From Akanthomyces muscarius (Eukaryota; Ascomycota; Sordariomycetes; Hypocreales; Cordycipitaceae): a DNA stretch of 64,000 bases. The position numbers and the translations under genes were made by a program. Under the pieces are notes generated by a model. The model had not been told where the DNA came from. It was given only the letters and a program-made list of their open reading frames with translations, and did not search any database. The stretch spans positions 186,001 to 250,000 of the forward strand of contig NC_079243.1 of NCBI RefSeq assembly GCF_028009165.1. The letters are read 5' to 3'. Below, one piece after another: positions 1 through 51,144 of the stretch (within the stretch, counting starts at the first letter, position 1; each line of letters starts with the position of its first letter).

Positions 1-2030
1 GAGGAGGACTTCCACTACAAGGTTCGGCTGGATTCCGATAATCGGCTTACAGCAATATTCTTTGCCCATCCGGATTCAATCGCATTTCTCTAATGCAACC
101 CCGATGTTCTGCTCCTTGACTGTACCTACAAGACAAACAAACACAGCATGCCACTTCTCGATATGGTTGGCGTTGACGCTTGCGAGCGCTCCTTTTGTAT
201 TGCCTTTGCGTTCCTCTTTGGTGAGACCGAAGAAGACTACTCATGGGCTTTGCAACATCTTCGGTCGCTCTATCGGCGTGACCTTCCCTCCATTGTCTTA
301 AAAGACCGGTGCTTGGCTGCGATGAATGCGGCTGCAACCTGGTTCCCTTCATCCGGAGGTCTCCTCTGCACTTGGCATGTAAACAAGGCGGTGTTGCAAT
401 ATTGCCGGCCTGCCTTTCTCGCTGAAGGCAGCCAAGGAGAAAGGAGATGGGATGAGTTCTACAAGGCCTGGCATGCAATCGTAGCCTCTCCGACTCAAAT
501 GACGTATCAAGAGCGCCTGGCTGATTTCGAGCGGAATTATGCCGAGAGATTTACAGACGTAGTCGGCTATGTTAGGACAATCTGGCTTGACCCGTGTAAA
601 GAAAAAATTGTCCGAGCATGGGTCGACAGGTATTTGCACTTTGGCAATGTGGCTATCTCCAGGCAGGTGGCTCGTAGTTTGGTTGAAGACGGAGGGACTA
701 ATCTATCTTCTAGAGCCGAGGGAATCCACTTATTGTTAAAGGACACATTAAGATATCTACACTCGATCTGTTCGATGTCTGGCAAGCTATGAGACCTGCG
801 GTCACTAACCAGCTGAAGGAGTTGAATTAGGTGCGTGCTTCTCAGCAGGTATCAATGCCTCTGGACGTCTCTGGTGTGGTGTTTAAGGCGGTGCGGGGTT
901 GGGTCTCTCATCGAGCCCTACGTAAAGTGCAGGAACAACGGCAACTGCTTTCCAAGCCACTCAAAAACCCCTGCACCATGACCTTTACATCCTCCTTTGG
1001 GCTGCCGTGTGTCCATACTTTGAACAGGCTCGAAGACGAAGGCGGAGCCTTGTTACTCGAGCATTTCCATCCCCATTAGCACTTGAAACGAGATATGTCA
1101 AGACCACATCCAATATTAGAGCCTAGAAAAGCCCTGAGCCAGCTTAACTAGAGACGCAAGCAGCCAGCAACTAGCACAAGGAGAGAGCCTAGCGCGTTCG
1201 AGTTAGTTGAGGCAGCAACACGTCCAAAGGCCCTGCCTAAATGTAGCATGTGTCATAAAATAGGTCACACAATGACTTCGAAGTCATGCCCATTGCGATA
1301 CACAGAGCTCTTTCAGCCACCAGCCTCAGTCACCGAAACAACAGCACACACAACGAGTATCATGGCATCGGAAGCAGTGGCGACGACATCCGCTCGGGCG
1401 ACGATAGCTCATGCGACGATAGGTCAGAAAGACGATCTCATGGTAGCGGGGCAAGCACCAACGGGCCACCTCAGAGGCGACCAGGTATTAGAAGTTCAGG
1501 CTCTGGCAGATCGTGAGTTTGGTAGCCATACCTCTACAGTTGAGACAGTGGCAGATTGCATCATCAACTCGACAGTCGTACAACAGGCAGCGGTAGCCAG
1601 GTCAGCAGTGGTGGAAAAGGCAACTGCGCTAAAGCTGAGATATAACGACCCGCAAGCAATCTACCAGAGATATATTGAGTCGAGACAGGCTTGGTACGAC
1701 GCGCAGCCGCGTGGCAGTATCAAGACTAACTAGCAGTATCGAAAGGCAATGAGTTTACCCCAGCGGTATAACAGGGCGGAGCTTGCTTGGTGCCTTGATT
1801 GGAAGCAGATGGGTAGACAATGTAAAGAGCAAGGAAGGCCTAGAGACTGGACGAAGGAAGAACTGATGTCGTATCTGGATTGGGACAAGGCAGAAGAAGA
1901 TCGGGTTGAAGCAATGGTAGCAGCCGAGATGGAAGCGAATCCTTTTTCTGGCAGACGAGGCATGGGTGACATCTGGAAGGCTGCGGCAGTGGACTGTGCG
2001 GCACAAGACGCCCTGTATTTAGGGGAGTAG
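1..2030 (+). pseudogene. Decayed MULE-family transposase
   Basis: Several open segments in shifting frames together read as a fungal Mutator-like transposase. Homology is already open at base 1, so the element starts outside the window. At about 90-790 is the MULE DDE domain, with PLLDMVGVDACERSF, a VLKDRC segment and LLCTWHVNKAVLQYCRP. At 960-1079 is a SWIM-type zinc finger (Cys, then LPCVHTLNRL). At 1248-1320 is a zinc-knuckle-like CSMCHKIGH stretch, followed by charged C-terminal coding to 2030. The frame breaks near base 92, stops at 828-830, and stops again after LLLEHFHPH, where the family normally has Trp (TGG to TAG). The element is therefore dead. No terminal repeats could be identified. 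Confidence 0.75.
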
Positions 2031-3657
2031 GCCACTAAAGTTTAATTACTGACCACTTCGAAGGGGGGTGCGGGAAAACTAGTCAGCAGGGCGCGGCATT
2101 CTAAATCCGCGCCCGGGCGCGAATGTAGGGGCCGCCCACAATCTTCGTCCACAACACGGTTTCGGCCACCGGTGGACATCAGGAAACGAGGCGCAAAAAG
2201 ACATCGGCGGATCATGGGCAAAACGGGACAAGTGGACAAATGCACAATTGCCAGGCGGAGAACGACTACGCCCGCCAAAAAATGGGACGCCGAGCGACAA
2301 CAAGCAAAAAGTCACGAATGGACAAGGAGAAAGTTGCTCACCCGCTAGGTCCGGGAGAGCCAGAAAGTCATTAGCCAGCAACCAGCTGGTCAAGAATTTG
2401 CTGGACAAAAACGTGCAGTTGGTTGCGGCCAAGAAAAACAGCAACGAACAAATGAACAGCTGCTAGCTCGCCGCCAGCAATAGCAGAACTGCAAAGTCAC
2501 TAGCCATGAACCAGCTGGTCAAGAAGCTGTTGGGCGGAAAGACAACAAACGGTTGGGGAGGTAAAAGAAAAAGTGAATAAGGAAAAAGCCCCGGATGTGA
2601 ATTGCTCCTTCCAAATGCAAGGCAGAAATCTCAGGCATTTTATCCCGAACACACTCGCAGATCTGCTTGAAGGATGGCGTCATATGACGTACGCCTGGCC
2701 TCGAGATCACGCTCAATTTGGCGTCAGATATAGCATGGCAAGCCACCTTCAGTAATCCAGACCCAAGGACACCTGTGGCTCTTGATAGGCTGAATGCATA
2801 CACTAATTCATGCTATCATTGTATCTGGCCGCCTCTACCTACCTCGAGGTTTCAGAGACTTCCTGAGAATTCCATGGCGGCTCTATCTTACTTCATATTG
2901 GCGCCACACAGCAGGTATAATACGGACTCTGACTACGTCTTCGCACTGCCAGCAAAGTCAAGGTCGTATATCCTTGCTCTCCCAAACCATTGGTCCGTCG
3001 CTCATGCGCAGTGTTCCCCGGAAGAGCTCAAGGTATAGTTTGCGTCGGACTCCCGTGCACCTCCCGTTTCTTTCCTAGACACACATTTAATGTACCTGGC
3101 GGTTTGTGATCTCGCTGGCGGCGACCGTTCCGCCACCCTCCGCAAGTCGCGCTCCGTCCATCAACATACAGCCTAACTGTCAATAACACTTCGTCAAAGC
3201 CAAATCTAAACAGCTTGCGAAGGCGAATTCCACTGTCGATCGGAGGCATAGCCAATCGGCTAGTCACCATGAGCTTGATATGCGGCTTGGAATTTGGTGC
3301 ATAACTGTAGAAGTGTTTCGTTATAGTCGTAGAAGTGTTTGATTTACTCGCCTAGTCCATCAATTACACAAAACACATCGGGTGAGCTTATTGCTGGTAC
3401 ACTGACCGCGCCAGGAATTTGTCAAAGCTAGTTGCCAATATAGATCGCTAGGTTTAAAATTTATTTGCCGACGTTGGTACCTATTAACACAGCTACCGAA
3501 TTCTCGCGCTACTGTGTCTATTTTTGCCGGATCGGACCACTTGGCTGTACACCAGCGGCTCCTCAGCTCGTGGGCGTACTTCCAACCCCCTGCCATGACA
3601 TTATATATAATAGTCTATTGCCATGTGTAAACCCCCCGCAGCATATTCGTACCACTA
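2031..3657. other. Non-coding stretch right of the MULE
   Basis: No convincing gene is visible. At 2365-2395 and 2498-2530 a related segment occurs twice (KSLASNQLVK-like and KSLAMNQLVKKL-like when translated on the plus strand), suggesting remnants of a repeated coding element. The rest shows only short overlapping frames with no family resemblance. Confidence 0.4.
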
Positions 3658-6600
3658 TTAGGCGCCAATATGCATAAATCCAGCCCAAAAGATTGGCTCC
3701 TTTAAGCAGTCATGACTGATCATAATGGACATGGCAGCATAGTGCACACAAAATGCTATAAGATCGCTCGTTAGGGGCCTGCCTTGTTTGGGCCCGTACT
3801 GCACGAGGTAGCGGTAGAAGAATGCCGCGAAATCAGGGCAGATGAATTCATAGGCAGGCCATAGACAGCCGACAATATGGGGAAATCCTGCCAGCTGGAA
3901 CGCGTAGCCTATGGAGAGACTCTCGTCCAGCAGCAGCGCCACCTTGTTCTCTGCCGTGGAACAGGCCGATAAGAACGCCAAGATGCCCTGGTGGGCTCTC
4001 ACATCTGCAATCTGCTGCACCGTGAGGCGCGAGCCTTGAACCGCGCAAACAGCGTCGTCCTCGTCCGTGCCAAGGCGAAGGAAGCTCGCTGCTGGATCGC
4101 TGTTGTCCGAGACGCCGTGGCTTGCCACATGGAGCCAGGAGCATGTACTCGCACTGCTGAGCGCTTCGGAGTGGGTAGGTCGTCGAAGGACCTCCCAGTC
4201 AATCATGGTGCTGGCCTCTGCGGTGACCTCTTCGACCTCGACACCGGCGTTGGACAGGTACAGAGCCTTGTCGGACCCTCCCTCCGGCGGTTCCATGCTG
4301 ATGATTAATCCCTTGCCACCCAGCCGGCTCGGCAAGTCGGTGCTGATGCTGTGAGCAAACGCCAGCTGTCGGAAGCTGGCGATGTACGTCGACAGCACAC
4401 CTCGCCCGAAAAACAATGTGTCCTTTCCGTTCCCACCGTGCAGGCCCGCTGCGTGAATGGGGAACCGAGAGTACTGCCCCGTCGGCAGCCACAGAATTCG
4501 ACGTCCCATCATGAGCTCTGACTCGAAGCCTCGCACTTGTCCAAACCCCAGCTCCCTGGTGACGGGCTCAGCAATGTGATGCCAAAGAATGGCCAGTAGA
4601 CCGAGCAGCGAATTGTTGTTGGGAACCCAGTCGCTCCAGTCGTCATCCGATTTGTGATGGACAATGCGCTCCATGACCCTCACACCTACATGGAGAGCGC
4701 CCGCAAAATTCGGTATGTAGGGGGGATCTGGCAACGGAACGGACCAGATCCGTTCTTTGTTCAAGATGATGGCATGGGTTCCGAACTTGCTAGTGTTCAG
4801 GGCCACCACACACTTGGTCCCACACAGCTCCTGCATTTCGCCTGACAAGATGGGCTCCAGGAATCGGTGCAGCCCCGAAATGGAGCGGATCTCTTTTAGA
4901 ATCTCCTCCATTTCCCTATTGAGCGTATCTACCCTGGATGGTAGCTGGGATACTCGTTTGACTGCGTGGTCATCTGGGTACATTCGAAGCTCTTCCGCGC
5001 CGCCCTCCACCCCGTTTGGGACCCCGAGCAGCTGGTCTCGGGCCCGGCAGTATCGTCTAAAGAGGTCCGGACTCCTTTCCTGGAGATTGTCGATGTTGTG
5101 CAGAGCTTTGTGTGCAGCCGCGACGAGGATGCCGCGCCCTCTCTCCAGGTCTTCTACGGCTTCCCGCACTCTCCCGCACGCAATTGCGACCGAGCAAGCC
5201 TCTGCCGCCAGCCCGAAAAAAGACTTCACGATAGTCCTCTGATCTTCCGAACTCATGTGGATAGGCACAAGCGTGGGGATCCAGTCCACGGCGCTGTGAA
5301 GCAGCTCGTAGGCCTCCTCCCAGCGGCACTGGCGCCCAAGTAATTCTGCCGCGCGACGTGCTGCTTCGATACGTTTTAGAACGAGGTTCGATGGGTGCTT
5401 AGCTGACTGTGTAAAGTAATCCACGGCCTTGACGAGACATGCCTCTGCCTCCGAGCCATCCGCAGCGCTCTTTTCACTTGCCTCGTACTTCAGCCTGTAG
5501 GCTTCAGCAGCAGTCGACAGCAGTCCACCTCGGCCAAGTTGGATGTCTTCCGATGCCGTGAACGCTAATTCGATATGATGGAGAGCCAGATCCAGATCCT
5601 TCTGCACCCCATCCCTTTTATAAAGCACAATAAATCTGCAAGCCATGTTGTTCTGCGCAATGGCGGAGTTAGGCATGAACTCTAGGCTCTTTTGTGCCTT
5701 TGACAAAGATTGAGTCAGATGCTCTCGCTTGTTGGTACAAAAGAACATATTTTCGTATAGGATAGAGATCTGACCAAAGTGCTTTCCAAGCTTAAACGAT
5801 CCAGGAACTTGAAATTGTATGCTCATCTCACCATATCGGAGACCCTCCAAAGCATCGTCTAGCTTTCTCAATCGTTCGTACTTCTTCGTGTACAGAATCA
5901 GCATCTCGAGAGCCACGGAGGCTTTGTAAGCACCGTAAGGAAAGTTCTCAAAGAGAGTTACAGCTTTCTTCCCGGCTAAAATGGCGGCCTCCAGATCCTG
6001 TAGCTGATTTGTAATCCCATACCTTGCCTGAAGGGCGCGGGCCCAATGGTCGTACATGGATGCTCGCTCTCTACTGCTGGTCTTCGGCGAGACCAGGACT
6101 ATCAGCTTGTCCATAATAGATACGGCATTTTTTATGTCGTTGATATCGTTCTTAAGTCTACCTCTTGTAGTCAACGAGGATACCAGGCTGATACATTGAG
6201 CTGCATCGTCTCCGTTTGGACCTCCCCCAAGAGACTTGTGGCCGAACTCAATCGCTTCGTCGAGATGACGAGGATCTCCGGATACGTCAAAGAGTAGATG
6301 CAGGGCATTTGCCAAGTTCTGATATAGTGCCAGACACATTGGAGAGCGGCCGCTGGCTTCCTCGCGCGGAAGAGCTTCCAAGCTTAATCTCGTAGCCCTC
6401 ACCGACGCCTTCAGGTCATCATGTCCTCCAAAGCAACTGTATTTTTCTCGAAGTGTAGTGCCAAGGATACGCATAATTCTGCAGCGATCTGCATGATCCT
6501 CAACGTCGACCCTAGCTGCATCCTCAGCCTCGTCTACTGCCAGCATTAGCTTAGCTGTCTCGTGGCCTATTTGGTACAAGCGGAGCAGTAGCTCGGCCAT

Positions 6601-6987
6601 GCGAGCCTTTATCAGCGCACAAAGAGCAGGTTGCTGACTGGCAGCATGTTCAAGCGACAGCCTAGAGAATAGCAGTGCGCTTTCCAAATCCGAGTAGCTT
6701 GCAGACTCGAGATTCTCAATTTTTGTGACTGTCAAGTTGAGCCACTTTACCATCCAGCTCGTCCCTTTCTTTTCTGTTGGTGCCAGCTCAGTAAGTTCGA
6801 GACAATGACCTTTTAGGGCGTCCAGATCAGCTGCTTTCCCAGACGTCTCCCATTGCCGGGTGAGTGCTCTTTGGAACGTCTCCCAAGCGGCTACCCAATC
6901 ATCCGTACCAGCTGCGGCTTCTGTGTATCTCTTTCTAGCTGCATCGAAGCTCTCGGTGTGAACTTGACTCATTCTATTCGGGCACAT
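3658..6987 (-). CDS. TPR-CHAT domain (caspase-like) protease
   Basis: A single uninterrupted 1109-aa frame. Residues from about 1 to 620 are helical repeats of TPR type (sets such as LAVDEAEDAARV, LALYQNLANALHLLF and LDEAIEFGHKSL). The C-terminal third, about 730-1105, is a CHAT domain, the clan CD cysteine peptidase fold related to caspases. The putative dyad is present: His957 in LHVASHG and Cys1009 in AFLSACSTAE, 52 residues apart as expected, followed by ESLSIGYAFQLAGFPHIVGCLW. There is no NB-ARC or NACHT module, so this is a plain TPR-CHAT protein like those paired with effectors in prokaryotic immunity. An alternative start is Met6. The gene diverges from the gasdermin-like gene at 7594. 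I infer that it activates that pore protein by cleavage; the substrate is not shown by sequence. Confidence 0.88.
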   Translation of the reverse strand: MCPNRMSQVHTESFDAARKRYTEAAAGTDDWVAAWETFQRALTRQWETSGKAADLDALKGHCLELTELAPTEKKGTSWMVKWLNLTVTKIENLESASYSDLESALLFSRLSLEHAASQQPALCALIKARMAELLLRLYQIGHETAKLMLAVDEAEDAARVDVEDHADRCRIMRILGTTLREKYSCFGGHDDLKASVRATRLSLEALPREEASGRSPMCLALYQNLANALHLLFDVSGDPRHLDEAIEFGHKSLGGGPNGDDAAQCISLVSSLTTRGRLKNDINDIKNAVSIMDKLIVLVSPKTSSRERASMYDHWARALQARYGITNQLQDLEAAILAGKKAVTLFENFPYGAYKASVALEMLILYTKKYERLRKLDDALEGLRYGEMSIQFQVPGSFKLGKHFGQISILYENMFFCTNKREHLTQSLSKAQKSLEFMPNSAIAQNNMACRFIVLYKRDGVQKDLDLALHHIELAFTASEDIQLGRGGLLSTAAEAYRLKYEASEKSAADGSEAEACLVKAVDYFTQSAKHPSNLVLKRIEAARRAAELLGRQCRWEEAYELLHSAVDWIPTLVPIHMSSEDQRTIVKSFFGLAAEACSVAIACGRVREAVEDLERGRGILVAAAHKALHNIDNLQERSPDLFRRYCRARDQLLGVPNGVEGGAEELRMYPDDHAVKRVSQLPSRVDTLNREMEEILKEIRSISGLHRFLEPILSGEMQELCGTKCVVALNTSKFGTHAIILNKERIWSVPLPDPPYIPNFAGALHVGVRVMERIVHHKSDDDWSDWVPNNNSLLGLLAILWHHIAEPVTRELGFGQVRGFESELMMGRRILWLPTGQYSRFPIHAAGLHGGNGKDTLFFGRGVLSTYIASFRQLAFAHSISTDLPSRLGGKGLIISMEPPEGGSDKALYLSNAGVEVEEVTAEASTMIDWEVLRRPTHSEALSSASTCSWLHVASHGVSDNSDPAASFLRLGTDEDDAVCAVQGSRLTVQQIADVRAHQGILAFLSACSTAENKVALLLDESLSIGYAFQLAGFPHIVGCLWPAYEFICPDFAAFFYRYLVQYGPKQGRPLTSDLIAFCVHYAAMSIMISHDCLKEPIFWAGFMHIGA

Positions 6988-7593
6988 GGCCAGAGGAAGT
7001 TTTCGGTAGAGGTATTCTCGCGTGCTCTCTGTAATTGAGGGAGTACCTGCAAAATGGATGCTGAGTTCCGTGAGAATAGATATGGAGTTATGAAGGCAAT
7101 GGGGAGTTCAAATCGGGTCTCTAAGCCATGCTCCTCCAAACCTGACAAACTATCTTATGCAGAATTCGGCTCGAAAGTGTGCATAGTAAGACTCAACGCT
7201 CCAGAGCCAAACTGATCAGGGCAGTGCCTTTGTGGCGCTGTTTTATCAGAATGTTGTTCCGAGAGCATGTGAGGGGAGAGACAATCACGTGTATAACGCA
7301 GAGCCAATGGGCTACAAGGTGGCGCTCGATGCCGTGAAAGTCTCCAGCTGATAAGGCGCCCAAGCTGAAAGCTAGCGTGAAAGCTAGCCTGCCAGCGAAA
7401 CATCTCAGCCGTAATATATTGGCGGACAGCACAAGCTGATCCTTTGCCAATATATCCAAGCCACAGAATGCGTTGGCCGCCTAAAAAGGCTGTAAAGCCG
7501 CCCCGCATGGATATTTTGGCATCGTACAGGCACCACTGCTAGTCAAGTTTGTAAATCGTCACCTCCAGGCACATAATCCTTAAGCAAGTGACT
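6988..7593. promoter_or_regulatory. Shared divergent promoter region of the CHAT and gasdermin-like genes
   Basis: This 606-bp gap separates the two divergent start codons and must hold both promoters. I see no clear TATA box, operator or conserved dyad in it. The short reading frames here are chance frames. Confidence 0.5.
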
Positions 7594-8424
7594 ATGGGGA
7601 AGACGGCCGTTTTTGTTTCGAGGATCCCGCTCCCTCTGACGTCAATCTCACTGGGAAGACTTATCACTGTCCTGAAGAACCCTCCCCAAAATTTCTTTGA
7701 CCCCCACGAGAAACTTGCGGCCAAGCCCAGGCCTGACAGTGATCATTCTGACGTTCTCAACCCCTCCGAATTCATCGAGCGGTCATATGGTACCAAGCTG
7801 GAGCTGGTGCTGGCCAGTTTTGCCTCGGCCTTTTTCAAGGTCGAATCGACACATGCTCGGCGACTGGCTGCCTGCCGTATGACGCGCTACTTCATTCTCA
7901 ATGCCGACGACTGGTTCGATAGCGTCTGTGGGGAGAAAGAGACGCAACTCTGGCTCGAACGACAGACGATGCGCAAGAAAGACATCTACCTAGTCACCGA
8001 GTATTGCACACTTGTTCAGCATACCTCCAGCACCGACACTACGCTGGCTGCCTCGGCGGGCGAGTCGGTCACAGCGCCTCTTGCTGCTGCGGCTGGCATA
8101 TCTCTGCCGACACCATGGGATCCTTCAGCAGCTGCCCGTGTGGAGAGTTCCCATACCAGTCGAGTGTCGTACGAAATTCCCGGGGAGAAAGTGTTCTGGG
8201 TAGGGTACCAACAGGTCAAGCTCTCTAAGAACAAGGAAGGGCAACTCCAATACTCGCTGTCTGATAAGAGGAGATGGCAGGAACTGAGCAGTAGAAGAGA
8301 CGATAGTGTGGACAAGCGGGTAGTCGTCATTGCTGATTTATGCAATGTAAGCATTCCGGATGATTGTGAAACCCTGGAAACAGAGCATACAGTCTACTTG
8401 TTCGAGAGAACCGTTGAGCAGTGA
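7594..8424 (+). CDS. Fungal gasdermin-like pore-forming cell-death protein
   Basis: A 276-aa intronless frame starting at the first ATG; an in-frame GTG lies six bases upstream. The size fits fungal gasdermins of the RCD-1/HET-Q1 type. Segments matching my recollection of that family are KNPPQNFF at 28-35, RYFILNADDWF at 98-108, an IYLVTEYCTL strand at 131-140, an Ala/Gly-rich hairpin segment AAAAGISLP at 164-172, and IPGEKVFWVGYQQVKL at 195-210. After a charged linker (about 226-242, rich in Arg and Asp) comes a tail of about 35 residues that could be the autoinhibitory C-terminus removed on activation, as reported for HET-Q1. Known family role: oligomerising in the plasma membrane and killing the cell after incompatible fusion. 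The divergent CHAT protease gene supports the call, because fungal gasdermin genes often sit beside protease genes. Recognition is by motif memory, not by alignment. Confidence 0.78.
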   Translation: MGKTAVFVSRIPLPLTSISLGRLITVLKNPPQNFFDPHEKLAAKPRPDSDHSDVLNPSEFIERSYGTKLELVLASFASAFFKVESTHARRLAACRMTRYFILNADDWFDSVCGEKETQLWLERQTMRKKDIYLVTEYCTLVQHTSSTDTTLAASAGESVTAPLAAAAGISLPTPWDPSAAARVESSHTSRVSYEIPGEKVFWVGYQQVKLSKNKEGQLQYSLSDKRRWQELSSRRDDSVDKRVVVIADLCNVSIPDDCETLETEHTVYLFERTVEQ

Positions 8425-8852
8425 GATGCCAACAGGGATGCTTATCAACCCACCAGATCTACACGTTGATCAATATATTGGCATCACCTACTTTGGGCTA
8501 ATCTGCTCGTTTGTTTTCGTTGCCTTGCACACCGCACCTGTAGCAACAGGTCGTGATGAAACTGTAGAATGAATGCTCGCTAGTTTATTGCTTTATCTCC
8601 ACTACAACTTGTTAACGTACCTTATAGAATAAATATATATATACCCCTACCCCTATAGGAACTACTTTTAATTTATAGTAAATAAGCAAACTAGAATAAA
8701 AGTTACCATCGGTCATGGTCCTTGTTAAGCCAGCTTTTAGCCGACGGAAGCTTCTGTGGAACTTTGCGCTAAGGCCGCTAGCCAGGCCCGCCGAGTTGCA
8801 TTATTAAGTCGATTTAGGCACATGCGCTCTCCTACGTAGCACGCCACCTCCA
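8425..8852. other. AT-rich intergenic stretch
   Basis: 3' flank of the gasdermin-like gene and of the white-collar pseudogene. It includes an AT-rich run near 8625-8700. No gene or repeat is recognised. Confidence 0.5.
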
Positions 8853-11207: not shown

Positions 11208-12377
11208 TCATACAGTACTATCTTGATGATTGATTCCACCGTTATGAAAATTGTCTTGCATGTCGTGCACAGATGCTACACTTGTTCTGCGCTGGTGGTA
11301 TACCTTCTTGGGTGCTGAGAACCCTCCATTGCCAATGCCAGTCCAAAATGCCTTGTCCTTGTTGCGCGGTCCCCACGCCCAGCCGGCGCCTCGTCTCACG
11401 GGAAGGTGATATTGCCGGAAGCCTAGAATAGATGATATGGTGCCAATTAAGAAACCAAAGATGATGTCGAAGCCGTGATGTTGAAAGTCGGACCATCTCG
11501 AAGAGGAGATGAATACTGCCGTGCCAAGAGGGATAAGCACGATGAATAAGGCATAGAGTGGAGCAGCAGCAGCTTGGCGCCGAATGGAAAAGCCAGAATT
11601 GCCACTTGTTTTCTGTCTAGCTGCGACATTGGCCTCGTCGTTCGTCTCGGTGGCAGGAGAACTGGATTGGACATCTATGCCAGAACTGAATCGTGACGGA
11701 AACGCCGTTTGAGATGCGTCATCATTGCTGTCCGTACTTAGAGACAGGCTGAAGGTACAGGAGCGTAGCTTAGCGGCCAGTATTAAGCAAAGGTAGACTA
11801 ATCCCGCAGCAGAGACTGAGGAGTGGCCCGATGGAAAACTGCGGAAGCCTTCATCGACGACACTCTTATCCGAGTTGGTGCAAATACCGGGATACACCAG
11901 CTGGCCATTATTTGGCGCATCTGCCATCTTGCCGACAATGTACTGAGCTGCATGGGCATAGTCTGGCTGGCAGCGTTCGAGAAAATTGGGCCGCGGCTTG
12001 CCAAACAGGTTTTTCATGCCGCTGGTAAAGAACCAGGCTATGACGAGAGACAGTGCCAGACCGAGCCATCCAACGTGCCACTCCCACAGCCTGCGTCTCC
12101 ATATGTGCGCTCGAGGGATTCCGGCTGTTGCAGTCAGTCCTGGTACAACCAGCATGGAAATGATGAAGATGATGACGGCCGGGGCGATAAGGGAGACAAC
12201 AAAGAGCACGGCTAGTGAAATGGTATCATGGCCGAGGTAGGGGAGGCCGATATTTGGTTCTTGGAGATTGATTGGGCGTCGGTTTGGGGTGATGTTGCCC
12301 ACCGCGTAACCTACGCCTGCGAAGATGATTAGGATGGCCCAGTCGACAACGTACGAAGCAATGAGCATTATCGACAT
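11208..12377 (-). CDS. PAP2-family lipid phosphate phosphatase
   Basis: 389 aa with about six membrane segments. The three phosphatase signatures of the PAP2/LPP family are present: KPRPN in LFGKPRPNFLERC, PSGHSS in FRSFPSGHSSVSAAG, and SRWSDFQHHGFDI. These carry the conserved Arg and His residues that act through a phosphohistidine intermediate. Known relatives dephosphorylate phosphatidic acid or diacylglycerol pyrophosphate. A Ser/Asn-rich hydrophilic insert lies between the second and third signatures, and a long polar tail ends the protein. No intron is needed. A second gene of the same layout sits at 40035-41201 on the other strand. Confidence 0.9.
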   Translation of the reverse strand: MSIMLIASYVVDWAILIIFAGVGYAVGNITPNRRPINLQEPNIGLPYLGHDTISLAVLFVVSLIAPAVIIFIISMLVVPGLTATAGIPRAHIWRRRLWEWHVGWLGLALSLVIAWFFTSGMKNLFGKPRPNFLERCQPDYAHAAQYIVGKMADAPNNGQLVYPGICTNSDKSVVDEGFRSFPSGHSSVSAAGLVYLCLILAAKLRSCTFSLSLSTDSNDDASQTAFPSRFSSGIDVQSSSPATETNDEANVAARQKTSGNSGFSIRRQAAAAPLYALFIVLIPLGTAVFISSSRWSDFQHHGFDIIFGFLIGTISSILGFRQYHLPVRRGAGWAWGPRNKDKAFWTGIGNGGFSAPKKVYHQRRTSVASVHDMQDNFHNGGINHQDSTV

Positions 12378-12623: not shown

Positions 12624-13575
12624 TCACACGCTTGTCTGGCTTTCCCTTGAAGACGGATAGTTTTCCTGACCCTTCTTGTATTTTGTCTGTTCGGCTTTTG
12701 CCATCTTGTAGAAGATCCACGCACCCCAGAGCTGGGCTACAGAGAACAGCATGTGAAGAAAGGGAGTGGCAATCTTGAGAGACATAGACCACTTCTCCCA
12801 CAGCGAGCCAAAGAGGAACATGACGATCGCGGTCTCGACAGTTGTGCCAACAACCTCCAAAAGTGCCGTGGCGTAGAATACTCGAGCCAGAAGCTGATGG
12901 TCACTGACGTGAACTCGATAGTAAATCATGGCCAAATGGGGCCGAAGCTCCGCGACCACGTCGAACGCACCTGCAAAATTGTTACCATAAGGGCTTCTGT
13001 CCTCTGGCAGACCCAACTGGCTCCCACTCACCCCAGATAAAGCACAATATGAACTCGTAAACAGCATCTTTCTCGTGGTTGAAGTTGATGCTCATCGCGA
13101 TTGCAGACTGAGCAATTACGATGGCGCCGATATGGTGAGCGTAGCTGATGATGGAGACCTTGTCGCGATAAAATAACTCGAAGATGTACATGCCGGTAAA
13201 TAGTTGCGACGAGACAATCATCATGTCTCCGAGGGTGACAATCGAGTCTGGTGCGTATGGAGTATGTGGTGTTTTGCCGGCACCGGTGATCGCCAGGAGC
13301 GGATAACCGCAGAGGACGATGAGAAGGATTTTGGTGCCGGCTGCGACATGGTGGTTTGTGAGGCTGCGTATTTGGGTGCCTGTCAAGCCGCGGAGGGTGT
13401 TACGAGAGTACAGTTTCGGGATGAGGAAGTCGAGAATGTAAATGCAGATCGCGGCAATGATGCAGCAAGTGACGGTCAAAATCAAACCCAAAAATGGTGC
13501 AATGGAAGAAATAGCCTCGTTGATGAGTTCACCCAAATGCAGCTTGCTGCCGCCATGATGTGGTTTCACGACCAT
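12624..13575 (-). CDS. TLC-domain membrane protein (two exons)
   Basis: Predicted exons are 13575-13032 and 12970-12624, joined across a 61-nt intron (GTGAGT ... TTTTGCAG), giving 296 aa. The start is the ATG in ACCATGG; the frame is open further upstream but has no ATG. At least six hydrophobic segments are seen. The central FTGMYIFELFYRDKV followed by AHHIGAIVIAQSAI matches the TRAM/LAG1/CLN8 pattern of E-L-x-x-R and a conserved His pair. After splicing, exon 2 reads GAFDVVAELRPHLAMIYYRV, typical of the C-terminal half. The family includes lipid-sensing and ceramide-related proteins, but the substrate here is unknown. A broken near-identical copy lies at 53780-54458. Confidence 0.8.
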
Positions 13576-13817
13576 GGTTGCATGCCGAGAGATATTTCCA
13601 GACTCAACAAGTGAACAGGGCGTAGAAGTAGAATCAAGAAACAAATGAGTACGAGGTGACGTGAGTTTTGGCTGAAAGTGGCGGCTCTAGAGCGTCGAGT
13701 TCTGCTAACAGAAGGCGTTCCTGGCAAGCCACGATCAAGGCCCAGGATGGGCAAGGGACAGGCCAAGCGGCGAAAGAGTGTGTGAAGTTGAAGACGATAT
13801 ATAAATTAGAAAAGACA

Positions 13818-14474
13818 TTATAGTGCTTCTCGAAGTACATACAAAGCAACACAACCGCCCGAGAGCCATTTCATGCAACGTATGAGCGAAGTATATTGTC
13901 CAGTAGCAGCACCAGACTTGGTCGGCGAGGCCTGGCCCGGCAACGACGACGAGCTCGTCGTCGGTGCACCACCACCGTTGCCAGAAACTGTGGCGGTGGT
14001 GCTGCCGGCACCGACTTTGCTAGCGCACCAATTCGTCCCGTCCGCCGAGACGGCAGACCAGAAGCTAGAGCCCACAGACGCGGCACCTAGCGCGTAGCAA
14101 GCCGCCTCGGCACTGTCCCATCGCGCCACGTTGGGGTTGCCGTTGCCGTCGTAACAGAGACACTGGGCCTTGGTGTCGCCGTTGCCGTTGACAAAGGCCG
14201 CTGATGACGCCGATGCGCAGCTCTGCAGAATGGAGGTCAATGTCGCGCAGGGCACGGGAAGCTGCACCGCGGAGGTGACGGAGTCTCCGCCGCCGCTGCC
14301 GCCGCCCTTCTGAAGGGCGCTAAAGCACGCGTTGGGGTCCTGGGCCGTGCAGCAGTGGGAGATTTGCGCTGGAAAGGGGACAAAGGCAGATGGGCCAGAC
14401 TGCTGGCAGCCACCCCAGCTGTAAGGGACCCCCGTGCAGAATCTAGCAACACAATCTGCCGACATCATCAGCAT
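13818..14474 (-). CDS. Cys-rich, Ser/Thr-tailed surface-type protein
   Basis: A 218-aa frame. The N-terminal half has many Cys (FCTGVPYSWGGCQQ, SHCCTAQDPNACF, SCASASSAAF, AQCLCYDGNG), followed by WDSAEAACYALG and DGTNWCASKV. The C-terminal part is a Ser/Thr/Gly-rich linker and a moderately hydrophobic end. This looks like a secreted or GPI-type wall protein, with the Cys spacing of small fungal surface proteins but not a clear CFEM domain. The annotated N-terminus (MLMMSADC) is not a good signal peptide. The sequence TTGCTAG just before ATTCTGCACG could be a 3' splice site, so a signal exon may lie upstream; I could not find it. A 5'-truncated copy is at 51145-51552. Confidence 0.55.
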   Translation of the reverse strand: MLMMSADCVARFCTGVPYSWGGCQQSGPSAFVPFPAQISHCCTAQDPNACFSALQKGGGSGGGDSVTSAVQLPVPCATLTSILQSCASASSAAFVNGNGDTKAQCLCYDGNGNPNVARWDSAEAACYALGAASVGSSFWSAVSADGTNWCASKVGAGSTTATVSGNGGGAPTTSSSSLPGQASPTKSGAATGQYTSLIRCMKWLSGGCVALYVLREAL

Positions 14475-18112: not shown

Positions 18113-20326
18113 ATGGCGATTGTCCAATCGTCCAAGCCCGCGACCGGCGTGAGGGGCCGCCGACAGTTCCCGGAAGGCTTCCATCATGATGCTCAGACAG
18201 AGCTCATGAGAGGCGCCGCTCCAGTTACAACCCGCCCCTTTTTGCCCAGCAGCAGGCCAGTGCGTCGCCCGACAAGCGCCGCCAGAACTGGCCGCCAACG
18301 CCGACACCTCGGAAAAGACACCAACCCCAACGCCAATTACTACGGGATTCTCGCCGATGAAGAAGCCGACGAAGATGAAATTGTCGACACGCTCGATGCC
18401 TTAGACCTGGAATCCGAAACACGCAAAATCATTGCCAGAGAGAAGGAACGCATGGCAACCCGGGCCGATGTGCTGCGCACCTTTGCGGAATCCATCGCCG
18501 CCTGCGCAAGAAAATTCGACCATGGGTACGCCCATGCCGTCGCCAACGACTTCACCAGGTCCCTGCTGCACCACTGGAACCAGTTCCTCCACTCCGGAGA
18601 CACGGCAGGGTACAGCAAGGATCCCCCACTGATGAATTTACCAGTCAGACAGAAGCAAACTGCGGCCAGGCCGCCAACTGACAACCAGCTACCCCGCCCA
18701 AAAACAGTGAGTTTCGCAGAAGTCGCTACAGCAGGAGCACGTCAAACCCCGGGCGATGTGCGCATCGCTCCAGCTCGTAGACAGCCCATTGCCGCCAGTA
18801 ACTACACAGACCGCCGAATTTTGCTTCGCCTCAAAGCGGGTTCCAGCTTCTTCGAAAAGGACCCCTTTCAAATCCGAACCGCCATCTATGAGAAGCTTAC
18901 GCTCGGTGCCAATGACGTCCAGAAAATCACCAAGACAAATACAGGTTGGGCGGTCGCAGTGCGCAATGAAGAGATCCAGAAGAAATTATTGGAGTCACAA
19001 GAGCAATGGGGACCAAATGTGGACCTTACCATAGCAGAGAAGCAGGTGACATGGTTCACATACCTGATCAAAGATTTTCCAAGTGAATTACGCTCATATG
19101 ATGAGACCATCCTTGACTTCAACGCAATCATCAGCGAAGAAATCGTAGCCCAGACAGGCCAGACTCCTGTGCGATGGCGCCGCTCAGTCAAGCCTAGCAG
19201 TGACCCCACGAAGACAACTCTGATTATATCGTTCGAAAAGCCCGTACGGGGCACCTTTAGACTCCTCGGCCTAGGAGCGTATTCATTCCTCATGACAAAG
19301 CCCGAACGACTCGTGCAATGCCAGAACTGCTGGCAATTCCACCCACCTGTGCAGTGTACGGCGACGAAAACATGCCGAACCTGCGGTGTTCGTCACACCG
19401 AGCACGACACGGAAAGTTGCCAAACAACACCAAGATGTGCCAACTGCGATGGCCCCCACCACGCAGACTCCAGGCTGTGCTATGCACGGCCCAAGAAAGT
19501 TGGGGACACTTACCACAAACTCTCGAAGTCGCAGAGAATCCACGCTAGGAAACTCGGAGCAGATGACTACAGACGACAGAACATGGAAATGATGGCGGAG
19601 TCACTAGACAACCCGCAGGCGCCCAATGGGGACACGACAAACATCACCATGAACGAAGTTGACACAGAGATGGCGGACACAGCCGAGAGGAACGCCACCA
19701 CGACACCAGAGGAGGACTGCCTCCCTGCTCTTGGAGAAGATGAAAACATGGGAGACACGGAACAAGAACAACTACAGAACAATGAAGGGGTTCTGGAAGA
19801 AGATGTCGAATCAGGAAGGGCCGTAGAGGTACCGGATAGTCGAGAACAGCTAGAAGGAGGAGGAAACGAAGCCGAAAACACTGCTGAACAGGAAGCAACT
19901 GAGGAGGGACGAGAGGACGAGGGCAACAACAGCGAGGATGAGAACGATGAAGACGATAACGGAGACGACGACGAGGCTGCTCCTATGCAGCAGAGCCGCC
20001 AACAGGAGCAGCCAACAGCCTACCGGAGAAATATTTCGCGCACCACAATCATACATAGAATGGGAGTCTCAGAGATAAAAGCGCCCAGGGTACAGCTTTC
20101 CTCAAGGCCCACGTACCTGAAAAAGAAGTACATCAACGCAGATCTGGCTCGGCAAATCATCCCTTCCGAGACCACAAACCCTTCCAGTGATGCTCCGGTA
20201 GAACAGGAGATCCTCGTTCGAACATTACCCCGGCACTCTCCCCCGAGCAGCCCACCGCGGGAAGCTCGACGACGAGAAGAATCGCCACCGAAACGACGAA
20301 TGAGAACCCGGTCTACAGATGAGTAA
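18113..20326 (+). CDS. LINE ORF1 (gag-like RNA-binding protein)
   Basis: 737 aa. After a basic N-terminus and a central RNA-binding-like region (RRILLRLKAGSSFFEKDPF ... VRGTFRLLGLGAYSF) come zinc-knuckle clusters at about 400-465: CQNCWQFHPPVQC, CRTCGVRHTEHDTESC and CANCDGPHHADSRLC. The C-terminal third is strongly acidic, then basic. Its stop codon lies inside ATGAGTAA, so the ORF2 start overlaps it by 8 bp. This arrangement is typical of translation by termination and re-initiation. Confidence 0.9.
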   Translation: MAIVQSSKPATGVRGRRQFPEGFHHDAQTELMRGAAPVTTRPFLPSSRPVRRPTSAARTGRQRRHLGKDTNPNANYYGILADEEADEDEIVDTLDALDLESETRKIIAREKERMATRADVLRTFAESIAACARKFDHGYAHAVANDFTRSLLHHWNQFLHSGDTAGYSKDPPLMNLPVRQKQTAARPPTDNQLPRPKTVSFAEVATAGARQTPGDVRIAPARRQPIAASNYTDRRILLRLKAGSSFFEKDPFQIRTAIYEKLTLGANDVQKITKTNTGWAVAVRNEEIQKKLLESQEQWGPNVDLTIAEKQVTWFTYLIKDFPSELRSYDETILDFNAIISEEIVAQTGQTPVRWRRSVKPSSDPTKTTLIISFEKPVRGTFRLLGLGAYSFLMTKPERLVQCQNCWQFHPPVQCTATKTCRTCGVRHTEHDTESCQTTPRCANCDGPHHADSRLCYARPKKVGDTYHKLSKSQRIHARKLGADDYRRQNMEMMAESLDNPQAPNGDTTNITMNEVDTEMADTAERNATTTPEEDCLPALGEDENMGDTEQEQLQNNEGVLEEDVESGRAVEVPDSREQLEGGGNEAENTAEQEATEEGREDEGNNSEDENDEDDNGDDDEAAPMQQSRQQEQPTAYRRNISRTTIIHRMGVSEIKAPRVQLSSRPTYLKKKYINADLARQIIPSETTNPSSDAPVEQEILVRTLPRHSPPSSPPREARRREESPPKRRMRTRSTDE

Positions 20327-23300
20327 CAAAAAACGACACAATCCCCAACCAGTGACAATTAAAATCTTTCAGGCAAACGTGGACAAGGGAAAAGAAGCAC
20401 ACGGCGCCGCCCTCCAGCTCGCGTTTCTGGAGGGCTACAACGTCGTGATCCTACAAGAACCAAACACGTCCTACAACAAGAAGAAAGAGCTCTGCCGAAC
20501 TCAATATCACCCAGGCTTTCTTTGCTTCAGCCCGGTGGATTTTTGGCACGACAACGACACACGCCCACGCGTGATGACATACGTCAAGATAGATCGCAAG
20601 ATCCAAGCCGAACAGATCACCCCAGCAAAACATCGAGACCTTCTGTGGGTTAGAGTAAACGGGATCACTATCCTCAATCTCTACAACAGACCGGAAGTGG
20701 ACAGCACACTGCAAGTCCTCGAAGAATGGACTCCACCAGAGAACTGCATCGTCGCCGGCGACATGAACGCCTTCCACACTTCCTGGCAGGCAGACAGACC
20801 AGCCTCGCAAGACGGAAACCGCATTCATGCATGGACAGAAAGACACGACCTCGGTCTACTGAACGAGCCCGACGAGGCAACAACCATGGCGAAACGCTAT
20901 ACAAGAAGCAGCACAATTGACCTCGTCTTCTCAAACATACCAGAAGCGTCTGCCACGGTGGAAGTGCACCTCACGACAGGATCCCTCCACTACACCATCG
21001 GTATCGAGATTCCGGATCGGGAACCAGCCCAAGTTACACGGGGAAAAGTTCGAGTCACCACGCCGGATGAGATCAAGGCCTTTGGAGACCACGTAGGCAA
21101 GGCGGTGAAGTCACTACCTAGCGACGTAGACTCGCAAGCCCAGATCGAGGACATGGCCAGACAACTCCAAGAGATACTCCAGAATTCTGCCAAGGCATGC
21201 GGTAGGGTAAGCCGCGGTCGCTGTGCCCGAAGCTCTCCATGGTGGAACCAGGAGTGCAAAGACGCACACGACGATCTCCGTATTACACGACGCATTTACG
21301 AGAACCAAAGAGGAGAGGAAGTGCAACGGTCCAGGGTCAGATTTTACCGCGTCCTGCGACGCACAAGGCAGAAATTCTGGCGTAATACAATCAACGAAGT
21401 GACTAGCGCAGAAGGCGTATACAAACTCACCAGATGGATGAAACCGAAACAACGACTCCAACCCCCGCCGATCCAGGTGGGCGACATGACGTACTCTACC
21501 GACGTAGAGAAGGCCATGGCGCTACGGAAAGAGAAACTGGAACGCCGCGACGCGTCAGACGACATCGCCGACGGATGGCAACCACCAGTTAATCCTGCCA
21601 AGGAGATCCCATTCGCGAGAACCATCTCGACCAAAGAGGTTGAGAAGGCTGTCTTACACACCGGAAACACAACGCCTGGCTCGGACGGAATTACGACCAG
21701 GATGCTGCAGGCAGCCTGGCCACATATTGCCCAACTAGTCACGAAACTATACAATGCCTGTCTGAGACTTGGACATCATCCCAGCGTCTTCAAGGCTGCT
21801 GAGGTTGTCATGATTCCGAAGCTCAACAAGCGGGACCTCAGTAAAGTGTCTACATGGCGCCCGATATCGCTCCTCTCCTGCCTCAGCAAAGGCTTAGAAC
21901 GAGTGATCGCAAGAAGAATGGCATATGCCGCCATCAAATACGGCATCCTCCATCCAAATCAAGCCGGTGCGCTCCCAAAACGCTCCGCCGTAGACATTGT
22001 GGTGTCCCTGATCTACGATATCGAGAAAGCACTCGCGGCCGGCCAAGTGGCAACGCTAGTCACGGAAGACGTTATGGGTGCATTCGACGCCATCCTTCGC
22101 AACCGCATGATCCTTTGCTTACGGCGACAGGGATGGCCTGACTTCTTAATTCGGTGGATAGCCAGCTTCCTGCTAGACAGACTAGCCAGCGTCCGTTTTC
22201 AAGACGCGACTACACCAAGCGCGCGACTACGATGCGGCCTGCCTCAGGGCTCCCCCATCTCCCCGATACTCTATATCCTGATCACAGCGGCAATCTATTT
22301 CCTCTCGGGCGCGGCCCAGAGATACGGATACGCGGATGACACAGCGATGCTCTTTATTGGAGACTCGCTGGAGGACACAGCGAGGCAAGCGAACGAAGCC
22401 ATCGCAGCCATGGAATCGTGGGGAAGAGGCGAAGCAATCCACTTTGACCCAGAAAAGACAGAAGTCATGCATTTTTCTAGACGCAAGACAGATCACGACC
22501 AATCTCCCAGCATTCACCACGGCGACAAAGAGATATGGGCAGCGCCATCTATGCGGTGGCTTGGCATCTGGCTAGACAAGAAACTCACCTTCAACCACCA
22601 TATTGATGAGTGGACGCAGAAAGCTCGCAGAGTGATCAACCACCTCCGAGGCATGAACAATACCGTGCGAGGCATGGCAGCAACGGCGGCCCGCCGAGCA
22701 GCATGGGCCGTAGGCATGCCAACCCTGTTCCATGGGCTCGATGCCTGGTTGCCTGGGTTGGATCTTGGCAATTCGCGCCTCAAAAGAAACCACATCTCGA
22801 AGACGAACCTCGGCAAGATACAACGCGTGCTGAATCTCGCATGTAAGATGATCCTACCTATGTGGAAGACGACACCGTTAGAATTTCTCTGGAAAGAAGC
22901 GGGCATCCCACCCGCCAGCGTCCTGCTTCGACATATCCAGGAACGCATAGCAGTTCGCTACGCGACTCTGGACAAAGCCCACCCAATCAGCAAGCGGCTA
23001 CGGCAGTCGCAGAGAGAAATCGAGCTGAATGAGAAACCACTCATCGCGGAACGAATGGCTTTGCGGCACTCGAGGCTCCTCCGGACCTCGTACCGTACCA
23101 CCAAGATCGAGCGACCCAGACTCATCCCACAGAGGTTCTCTGACAACATACAAGTAGAAGGACCTAGTGAGAGGCTCACCAAAGAGAAGGCTGTACCAGA
23201 TTTCGAGCAGTGGCTTGCCTGTCGACCCGCGGGCTATGTAGTCTTCAGCGACGGCTCCAAAACAGACACGGACACGGCGGGATACGGCTTCGCCGTCTTT

Positions 23301-24068
23301 CACCATGGACAACTTCTGGATTGGGGTTCCGGACAGCTAGGACGCCGAGAAGTATTCGACGCCGAAATACGCGGCGCGCTTGTAGGATTAAAAGCAGCCA
23401 TGCAACAGAACAGCCGCCTCGAGCCAATCACAGTCTGCATGGACAACACGTCCGTGATCGACTGTATCGGAGCGACGGCGGCAGATTCTTCGCAGGCATG
23501 CTTCCGAGAATTCCAGAAAATTGGTGACAGACACCCGTACCTGATCTCAGTCAAATGGTCGCCTGGCCACACTGGCATTTTCGGCAACGAGCTGGCCGAC
23601 CAACTTGCGAAGCATGGCGCTACGCTCTCCACAGACGAACACTTGCCATCTGTCTCGTATAGGAAGAGACAGATGAAGAAGCAAATAACAGTTGATCACC
23701 GAGCCTGGTGGGCATCGGTTGAAAGAACGGAGTACCTCATGCTCGGACTTGGTGCTGAGCTGAAGAAACTCCCGGAACTCAGCCTTCCCCGCCGCCTGCT
23801 CGGCTATCTTCTGACTGCACGATCAAAACACGGCGACTTTGCGGAATACCACGAGAGATTCCATCCAGGACAGGCGACACTGGAGTGCCCTTGCGGGCGC
23901 CAAAAGTCGCCCACCCATCTTTTCTACTGCAGGAAAATCCCTGGCCATCTCCGGGTTCGGCTTGCACCCGATCCAGAGACGACAATAGGGAAGTTCCTCG
24001 GTAGATCCTACAAAGTGTACGTGCGCATTGCCGACTTCTACTATTCGAAGATCAACAAGCGCATGTAA
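20319..24068 (+). CDS. LINE ORF2 (endonuclease, reverse transcriptase, RNase H)
   Basis: 1249 aa. Residues about 10-235 are an APE-type endonuclease (FQANVDKG, VILQEPNTS, VAGDMNAFHTSW); the usual terminal SDH motif reads SLH. Residues about 440-760 are a reverse transcriptase, with GSDGITTRML, GLPQGSPISPILY and the catalytic YADD at 671-674. RNase H follows at about 970-1100 (FSDGSKTDTDTAGYGF, an AEIRGAL Glu, MDNTSVIDC, SPGHTGIFGNELADQ). A C-terminal CCHC-like cluster, CPCGRQKSPTHLFYC, closes the protein. It copies the element by target-primed reverse transcription. Confidence 0.93.
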   Translation: MSNKKRHNPQPVTIKIFQANVDKGKEAHGAALQLAFLEGYNVVILQEPNTSYNKKKELCRTQYHPGFLCFSPVDFWHDNDTRPRVMTYVKIDRKIQAEQITPAKHRDLLWVRVNGITILNLYNRPEVDSTLQVLEEWTPPENCIVAGDMNAFHTSWQADRPASQDGNRIHAWTERHDLGLLNEPDEATTMAKRYTRSSTIDLVFSNIPEASATVEVHLTTGSLHYTIGIEIPDREPAQVTRGKVRVTTPDEIKAFGDHVGKAVKSLPSDVDSQAQIEDMARQLQEILQNSAKACGRVSRGRCARSSPWWNQECKDAHDDLRITRRIYENQRGEEVQRSRVRFYRVLRRTRQKFWRNTINEVTSAEGVYKLTRWMKPKQRLQPPPIQVGDMTYSTDVEKAMALRKEKLERRDASDDIADGWQPPVNPAKEIPFARTISTKEVEKAVLHTGNTTPGSDGITTRMLQAAWPHIAQLVTKLYNACLRLGHHPSVFKAAEVVMIPKLNKRDLSKVSTWRPISLLSCLSKGLERVIARRMAYAAIKYGILHPNQAGALPKRSAVDIVVSLIYDIEKALAAGQVATLVTEDVMGAFDAILRNRMILCLRRQGWPDFLIRWIASFLLDRLASVRFQDATTPSARLRCGLPQGSPISPILYILITAAIYFLSGAAQRYGYADDTAMLFIGDSLEDTARQANEAIAAMESWGRGEAIHFDPEKTEVMHFSRRKTDHDQSPSIHHGDKEIWAAPSMRWLGIWLDKKLTFNHHIDEWTQKARRVINHLRGMNNTVRGMAATAARRAAWAVGMPTLFHGLDAWLPGLDLGNSRLKRNHISKTNLGKIQRVLNLACKMILPMWKTTPLEFLWKEAGIPPASVLLRHIQERIAVRYATLDKAHPISKRLRQSQREIELNEKPLIAERMALRHSRLLRTSYRTTKIERPRLIPQRFSDNIQVEGPSERLTKEKAVPDFEQWLACRPAGYVVFSDGSKTDTDTAGYGFAVFHHGQLLDWGSGQLGRREVFDAEIRGALVGLKAAMQQNSRLEPITVCMDNTSVIDCIGATAADSSQACFREFQKIGDRHPYLISVKWSPGHTGIFGNELADQLAKHGATLSTDEHLPSVSYRKRQMKKQITVDHRAWWASVERTEYLMLGLGAELKKLPELSLPRRLLGYLLTARSKHGDFAEYHERFHPGQATLECPCGRQKSPTHLFYCRKIPGHLRVRLAPDPETTIGKFLGRSYKVYVRIADFYYSKINKRM

Positions 24069-24527
24069 CCCTTTGTAGCTGTACAAGCCTGGCGCACTCT
24101 GTACAGTATCCAGCCCGAGTAGTTTGCGCTACTCGTTAAATTGTTCTCCATTTCCTTTGTTTTCGGCGACATACGCCACTGACAGCAGGGCTCCCGCTGG
24201 TCCCCGTACAAAGACCAGGAGACAAAAGTTGTTGGCGAAACGCGCTCGCGGTTGCACCCGCGGGCGCATAACGCCAGCATCATCGTGATCCCGCTGACGG
24301 GTATCGATTCAGACAGATATATGCCATTGGGCGCGAAACTGCTACAGTTGGAGGATGACAACAGGAAAAGTATTCCAGGGGCAACCAGTGAGAACATGGG
24401 CGCGGCACGCGTTCTGTTGGGGGCCCACTTAGCGGGTACAACTGTACATTAATCCGTAGAAGGCTCGATAGCACGTCCAAAAGCCTACCCTAGGGCGCCA
24501 ACGGACGTAATAGTCAAATCAAATCCC

Positions 24528-27500
24528 GCACCTGCGGCCATCGACAAAGTAACCACAAGGCTGGCAAGAATCCCTGGTGGAACGAAGAGTGTGCGAATTC
24601 ACTACTAGACTTCCGAGTGCTCTGGCGCACGACTGAGAACCCTACGGGCGAGGAGACGCAGCGCGCGCGCGTTTGCTTCAAGAGAACGGTTCGCCGTGTC
24701 CAGCGGGACTTCTGGCGTGGAATTATAGCAAACATTACAGCGCCGGGTGACGTCTACAAAATCACACGCTGGCTGAAGCCTCGGCAGCGGATATCCCCGC
24801 CTCCTATTCAGGTCGACGGGCAGATCTTCTCAACCAACAAGGATAAAGCTCGAGCCCTAGGCCAGGCGAAACTGGCACGTCGTACAGCTAACGATGATAT
24901 TGCAGACCCTTGGTCTCACCCTGTCACACCAAAAACCTCAATCCCATTCGACCGCAAGATCTCCTACGAGGAAGCCCGTTTTGGGCTCCTCAGCACCGGT
25001 AACACCTCGCCTGGCGCTGACGGCATCACAGTGAACATGCTCCAGACACTCTGGCCAACAATAGGACATCTCGTCACAAACATCTACAATGCGTGCTTAC
25101 AGCAAGGCTACTGCCCGAGCGCATGGCGCACAGCTGAGGTGGTGATGATACCAAAACCGAATAAACGGGACCTCACGGACCCATCGGCATGGCGACCGAT
25201 CTCTCTACTCTCCTGCTTAGGCAAGGGCATGGAACGCATTATTGCTAAACGAATGTCTTATCTAGCCATCAAGCACAAGATACTACACCCGAACCAAGCG
25301 GGCGCTCTGCCCCAACGGAGTGCTACTGACATTGCTGCTGCGCTAACACATGACGTGGAGCAAGCACGACGGAGAAGGAAGCAGAAGAAAGTCGCCACGC
25401 TAGTGACAATGGATGTAGAAGGGGCTTTTGACGCCATACTGCGAAATAGGCTCATACTACAGCTACGCAAGCAAGGTTGGCCGGATTTCCTCATCCGCTG
25501 GCTTGCGATGTTCCTCGCACACAGGCTAGCAAGCGTCCGCTTTGAGGACGCCACCGCGGAAGCACTGGAGCTCCTTTGTGGCATCCCGCAAGGCTCCCCT
25601 CTCTCGCCGATCCTATATCTGCTAGCGACAGCGGCACTCTACATGCTCCCTGGCGCTACGCAACGATATGGCTATGCCGATGACACCGCCATGCTCTTCG
25701 TTGGAGACACGCTGGACGAAACTACCACCCAAGCGAATGCCGCAATTGCCGCGATGGAGGAATGGGGTAGGAGAGAAGGCTTCGCCTTCGACGTTAAGAA
25801 GACAGAAGTGATTCACTTTGCGAACGAAAAGCGAAGCAACCTACCGCCCATCCAGCATCAAGATCGGACGGTCCTACCAAAACCAGCATTGCGATGGCTC
25901 GGCATCTGGTTCGACGCGCGCCTGAACTTCACGGTTCACATTACGAAGTGGGCACAGAAAGCTAAGAGCATCATCTACCACCTTCGAAGCATGAGCAACA
26001 CCATCCGTGGCATCTCAGCCGCTGCAGCGAGAAAAGCCGTGTTAGCAGTGGTTATGCCAACTCTTTTCTACGGAGTGGACGTCTGGTATCCAGGTTCGGA
26101 GCGAGTGTTAAAGGGCCATCTTGGGATAATCCAGAAAACACTAACAGCGGCCTGCCGGATGATCCTACCCTCGTGGAAGACAACGCCGAAGACTACACTT
26201 TGGAAGGAAGCTGGCATCCCGCCAGCAGAAGTACTCCTTGAGCAGCTTGCGATGCGAAGTGCGAACCGCTGGGCACGTCTTGACGTCAACCATCCGCTTG
26301 TCCACCGTATCGTGCAGCAAGAGCATGAGATCCAGCATGCCACACATCCCGATGCGGCTACGACACGGCGAACAGCGATGAAAAGCATCAGGCTCTTCCG
26401 CAACGCCGCTCTGGCACCAGCGGCAGAGCGGCCGCGCCTAACTCCCAAGCGTTTCTCCAGCGCCATCTGGACAGAAGACAGGGAACGTCGCCCAACAAAG
26501 GAACGCCAAGCGGAACGAATTCGGGAATGGAGCCAGACCCAGACGGGCATGGTTGTCTATAGTGATGGCTCCAAAACTGAACAAGATACAGCAGGCTTTG
26601 GATATGCTGTCTACCGGCGGCAGCAGCTCATTGCACAAGGAAGTGGCCAGATTGGCAAGGGCGAAGTGTTTGATGCAGAGATCAAAGGCGCCGTGGAAGG
26701 CCTCCGCGCTGCTCTTGCGCGTCAGCGCCCGGTGGAAGGGATCACAGTTTGCATCGACAACACCTCTGTGATCGACTGCATAGGCGCGACGGCGCCGCCA
26801 TCGTCACAATTGGCGTTCCGCCAGTTCCAGAAGACAGGTGATGCCCATCCGGGCATGATTCGTGTACGATGGTGCCCAGGGCACACCGGAATCGAAGGCA
26901 ATGAGCTGGCCGACCAGCTCGCTAAGGAAGGGGCAAAAATGCCGGTAGGAGACAATCTCCCGACAGTCTCCCACTGCAAGCGCCAAATGCGAAGATTACT
27001 CCCCATTGCTTTTCAGCGCTGGTGGGACACAGTTGACCGCGAGAGTTATCACGGACTCCAACTGAAAGCGGAACTGAAGAAGCTCCCCGAGCTGACACTT
27101 CAACGACGGCAGCTAGGATATCTCCTAGCCGCGAGGACACACCACGGAGACTTCGCCGACTACCACGAGCGCTTCAATCACGAAGACGCCGTGATCAACT
27201 GCCCATGTGGGCGCCGGAAGTCTCCAACTCATCTTTTCTACTGCAGGAAGATCCCCCACAGCCTCAGGCCTCGGCTGACCCCCGAGCCTGCAGCTGCGAT
27301 ACGGAGATACCTAGGTAGATCCTTCCAAACCTACGTAAAGCTTGCTGACTTCTATTATTCGAAGATCAACAAGCGATACTAGGGTACGGAAGGCGCTCTT
27401 AGCTGGCGACTAAGAGACGAACGAATCGCCCAAGCAGCGACAACTGCTTGTAAAACCATCTGTAATATTTCCTTTGTTACGTGGAAACACGCGCCAAACA

Positions 27501-51081: not shown

Positions 51082-51144
51082 GACAGCGAGCGATTTTTTG
51101 ACAAACTAGCGTAGCGAGCTCATTTTTCATATTGGTATATTCTG

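Follow-up and report, generated by a model that had tools for sequence, protein, structure and literature searches.

Fungal gasdermins are usually inactive until cut by a protease that is often encoded next door, and ~80% of their genes cluster with protease genes (~63% S8, 19% CHAT; PMC10197012), CHAT proteins making up ~17% of partner proteases in another account (PMC10989679). Do two divergent genes in a stretch of the Akanthomyces muscarius genome, one encoding a 1109-amino-acid (aa) TPR-like/CHAT protein and the other a 276-aa gasdermin-like protein, form such a unit? The window denotes the whole stretch analyzed (64,000 nucleotides; bases 186,001–250,000 of contig C3), and roles are assigned from this one genome (36.2 Mb, 12 contigs). 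We find that the pair is a further case of the already described fungal gasdermin/protease two-gene module, and consider it quite probable that it works as a pyroptosis-like one, in which a TPR-like sensor, a CHAT protease, gasdermin cleavage and pore-driven death would follow one another (coordinates in Table 1).

The larger gene encodes a CHAT protease in which the predicted catalytic His and Cys are retained. Specifically, PF12770 matches its C-terminal part at E 8e-24 with 85 bits (cut-off 24) and was placed identically in a genome-wide scan, and both His957 and Cys1009, already singled out in the initial annotation, are invariant in a full-length alignment (A4) of the window protease with four relatives. 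Identity to residues 700–1109 is 73% in P0018, 58% in P0019, 39% in P0020 and 37% in P0021; translation may in fact start at Met6, the point at which P0018 begins. The initial annotation had also described TPR repeats, a claim that stands for repeats of a TPR-like kind and is not secured for canonical ones. The family profile compared with itself gave off-diagonal matches down to E 6.6e-14, at shifts near 45, 90, and 137 residues, and compared with PDB it gave weak matches that included designed TPR and LGN TPR chains (E 0.013–0.5). Yet Pfam TPR models did not match the window protease even at E <= 10, and four such models each matched one of the five family members (best E 0.14). Given clear internal repeats and weak TPR structure matches with no Pfam TPR match, "TPR-like solenoid" is a safe label as judged from sequence, whereas "canonical TPR" would go too far. 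Relative to P0019, the repeats show lower conservation than the CHAT domain (50 vs. 63%); relative to P0018, the two are similarly conserved (69 and 72%). CHAT was the only Pfam domain found in the protein, with no match at E <= 10 to NB-ARC or NACHT, the domains by which a fungal NLR is recognized.

For the 276-aa partner, the gasdermin assignment held at the level of predicted fold and was borderline at that of sequence. A structure model of modest, partial confidence predicts a gasdermin N-domain fold: the top 25 rows of the fold comparison were all gasdermins, and the nearest solved structure was RCD-1 of Neurospora crassa (PDB 8jyx, 8jyy, 8jyz). A model built from four sequences was too poor and was discarded. 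By sequence alone, known gasdermins were reached at best marginally. Pfam, PADLOC, and NCBIfam searches with the protein returned no matches, phmmer with the protein alone against PDB returned one chance match and nothing significant, and single-sequence PDB searches with the related P0004 and two own-genome proteins introduced below (L008, L011) retrieved no gasdermin. With profiles, RCD-1-1 was reached in PDB at E 0.9–1.1 (A1) and 0.019–0.023 (A6), ~residues 93–165 aligning to it in two profile searches, and under A1 as well as A2 an 81-residue RCD-1-1 stretch scored above its 5,000 shuffled versions. Profile A3 listed unrelated PDB chains and not RCD-1, and in its shuffle control the RCD-1-1 stretch was absent from the best 8 rows, all of them shuffles. 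Such silence from A3, together with the missing Pfam and single-sequence matches and the modest model confidence, would also suit some other pore-former, or an unrelated protein whose pairing with the protease is incidental; that reading appears quite improbable when set against the all-gasdermin fold rows, the RCD-1-1 alignments, and the low likelihood that proximity to CHAT genes arose by chance.

That likelihood was estimated within the genome itself, where six-frame searches found at least three gasdermin-like open reading frames (ORFs) and at least five CHAT places. Two of the three ORFs have a CHAT place no more than 10 kb away, which random placement would give with a probability of ~2e-5. 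The analysis set out from the window pair, however, so that a fairer figure excludes it: for one of the two remaining ORFs to lie near one of the four remaining CHAT places, the probability is 0.0044. CHAT–gasdermin pairing in this genome is beyond chance. A neighboring protease gene, usual though not universal for fungal gasdermins, lies here 606 bp away.

The second instance, L011 (pair at C2:4.726 Mb), appears from its sequence to be an NLR-type gasdermin/CHAT pair analogous to that of the window. P0004 by itself matched its gasdermin-like ORF weakly (E 0.0019), but window family profile A1, run on this ORF mixed with 3,000 shuffled versions of it, gave E 1.1e-9. As in the window pair, a gasdermin-like ORF and a CHAT gene stand head to head; the difference is that the CHAT match continues with NACHT within one frame and that an NB-ARC/TPR frame lies downstream. 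The third gasdermin-like gene, L008, has no CHAT (5 places) or S8 (30 places) within 10 kb among the matches listed, so the idea that it is also protease-paired was dropped; with family members in Fusarium, Trichoderma, Xylaria, Ilyonectria, and Diaporthe, it is a candidate conserved unpaired fungal gasdermin.

Outside this genome, the pair probably co-occurs in one relative, as the initial annotation would lead one to expect: P0003 (gasdermin relative, 64% identity, 276 aa) and P0019 are each on a jgi contig of 21,471 bp, equal lengths that point to one shared contig. The closest relatives, P0002 (gasdermin; 76%, 285 aa) and P0018 (protease), lie on contigs of 1,542 and 5,544 bp that come from different sources, and are uninformative on linkage. 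The same relatives bear on whether the pair is a decaying relic in transposon-rich surroundings. Transposon sequences do flank it on both sides, and P0018 departs from the window protease and the other aligned sequences past ~residue 1060; but both frames are open, uninterrupted and at the coordinates initially annotated, the predicted catalytic residues are retained, and P0002, P0003, and P0019 (1141 aa) are of comparable full length, which leaves decay very improbable.

How might the two proteins work together? In the proposed circuit, the TPR-like domain would act as a sensor that keeps the CHAT protease inactive until a trigger appears, either non-self encountered when hyphae fuse or an invader inside the cell. 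The CHAT domain, through His957 and Cys1009, would then cut the gasdermin in the loop past its last core strand (~residues 230–245) and remove a tail of ~35–45 residues; the released N-domain would oligomerize into plasma-membrane pores, killing the cell compartment. The predicted tail would have its counterpart in HET-Q1 of Podospora anserina, a gasdermin of similar length (278 aa) from which 40 C-terminal residues are removed (PMC10989679): here ~44 poorly conserved residues end the protein, and this is its least conserved part relative to P0003 (42%, vs. 73% over residues 1–142). The likeness does not extend to the protease, HET-Q2 being a 388-aa S8 subtilisin-like enzyme, not CHAT, whose gene is an idiomorph of that for HET-Q1 (PMC10989679). 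A CHAT protein is encoded by hetB, an incompatibility gene of A. fumigatus (PMC11138114).

RCD-1, the best structural match, differs from the proposed module in being triggered when two allelic variants meet and not by cleavage (PMC12881547). The window gasdermin could therefore be real and yet work without proteolysis, via two divergent alleles, while the CHAT protein has another substrate or no part—a reading with which the L008 paralog, having no CHAT or S8 nearby among the matches listed, would also agree. We regard it as unlikely, however, because the head-to-head pairing is apparently retained in a relative and paralleled in L011, and because reviews give protease clustering as the rule for fungal gasdermins and cleavage as their usual control. 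The proteolytic circuit described above remains the reading that we prefer.

The initial annotation's two-gene module, whose role may be allorecognition or another form of defence, is supported by a CHAT protease, a gasdermin-fold partner, their probable co-occurrence in a relative, and an analogous pair in the same genome. Neither of the two outcomes that the annotation named as refuting it, a predicted fold unlike gasdermin and no co-occurrence in relatives, was seen. Its view that repeats without NB-ARC/NACHT are unusual and prokaryote-like does not stand. Many gasdermin-controlling proteases are described as carrying WD40, ANK, or TPR repeats adjoining the protease domain, with NLRs a small subset (PMC12881547, PMC10197012), and repeats are often fused directly to the protease (PMC12881547). 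By eye, neither PF00931 nor PF05729 occurs among the precomputed domains of the best 120 of 335 protease relatives, a selection into which both length and the CHAT-region query introduce a bias. On these two grounds, the prokaryote-like, hence unusual, reading was ruled out. A closer parallel, going by its description, is the Podospora anserina two-gene cluster of the same neighbor arrangement, in which a TPR-bearing CHAT protease activates the adjacent gasdermin (Clave et al. 2022, via PMC12881547).

Csx29, the TPR-CHAT protein of the type III-E CRISPR complex Craspase, is bacterial and RNA-guided. It shares with the window protease the order of helical repeats and then CHAT, though its similarity is weak: model NF041237 scored E 7e-7 and 28.5 bits, far below the family cut-off of 300. 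By analogy with Craspase, the repeats may sense a ligand directly and free the protease by an allosteric route that dispenses with a nucleotide switch, which would make the protein a one-step receptor-caspase with a gasdermin as its target; this refinement is possible but doubtful. Were it true, the same genome would also hold a nucleotide-switch (CHAT-NACHT) version of the circuit.

Table 1. Features of the gasdermin/protease pair in the window and of the two other gasdermin-like loci; positions refer to the sequence in the second column.
Feature	Sequence	Position	Strand	Remarks
TPR-like/CHAT protease gene	window	3658..6987	-	1109 codons, one uninterrupted frame
CHAT caspase-like protease domain	window	3661..4590	-	residues 800-1109; Pfam PF12770
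Cys1009 codon, predicted catalytic	window	3961..3963	-	5/5 in A4; role by analogy
His957 codon, predicted catalytic	window	4117..4119	-	5/5 in A4; role by analogy
Degenerate TPR-like helical repeats, presumed sensor	window	5128..6900	-	~residues 30-620; profile self-comparison
Upstream region common to both genes	window	6988..7593		606 bp, between the two start codons
Inverted repeat ATATATTGGC-N22-GCCAATATAT	window	7414..7455		in common upstream region
Gasdermin-fold protein gene	window	7594..8424	+	276 codons, one uninterrupted frame
Predicted pore-forming gasdermin N-domain	window	7615..8289	+	~residues 8-232
Predicted short inhibitory C-terminal tail, expected to be cleaved off	window	8290..8421	+	~residues 233-276; poorly modelled; role by analogy with HET-Q1
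Gasdermin-like ORF, 268 aa	L011 (C2:4724000-4733500)	1714-2520	-	
Frame with CHAT-like His segment	L011	3321-4352	+	no Pfam match; segment seen by eye
Frame with CHAT second half, then NACHT	L011	4474-7206	+	CHAT 31.6 bits, cut-off 24
NB-ARC/TPR frame	L011	7540-9165	+	further downstream
Third gasdermin-like gene	L008	4442-5290 (C1:271447-272223)	+	

Between the two genes, the inverted repeat of Table 1 was first spotted by eye, and its pattern has a single location in the genome. The ATATATTGGC 10-mer is present three times across the window, where 0.10 copies would be expected (a post hoc statistic), and always beside the gasdermin gene (the third copy at 8473–8482). A bacterial promoter/terminator scan of this region, ill-suited to fungi, stayed near chance level.

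The 5.5-kb locus occupies a single place in the genome, and a DNA search for a second copy there found none. Its surroundings include transposon-rich flanks (window 148–792, 20319–27382, 29090–30211, and 52065–53723) with frames for a MULE transposase, two reverse transcriptase/RNase H proteins, a DDE_Tnp_1_7 transposase, and an RNase H. Just past transposase frames, a 462-aa frame (31257–32645) carries N-terminal parts of a P-type cation ATPase (Cation_ATPase_N, E1-E2_ATPase). Also in the window are a 930-bp duplication (93%; 12893–13822 and 53776–54705), a 414-bp inverted duplication (97%; 13818–14231 and 51139–51552), two PAP2 phosphatase genes (11208–12377 and 40035–41201), and a 307-bp inverted repeat (99% identity; 57587–57893 and 63694–64000) that reaches the window end.

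This pair leaves the known picture of fungal gasdermin control unchanged and adds to it an apparently intact gasdermin/CHAT case, with a gasdermin so diverged that Pfam does not recognize it. The stimuli of repeat-only sensors are described as a major open question (PMC12881547). As one genome carries both the NLR-type and the NOD-less forms of the circuit, this fungus would offer a natural system in which to ask what repeat-only sensors detect.
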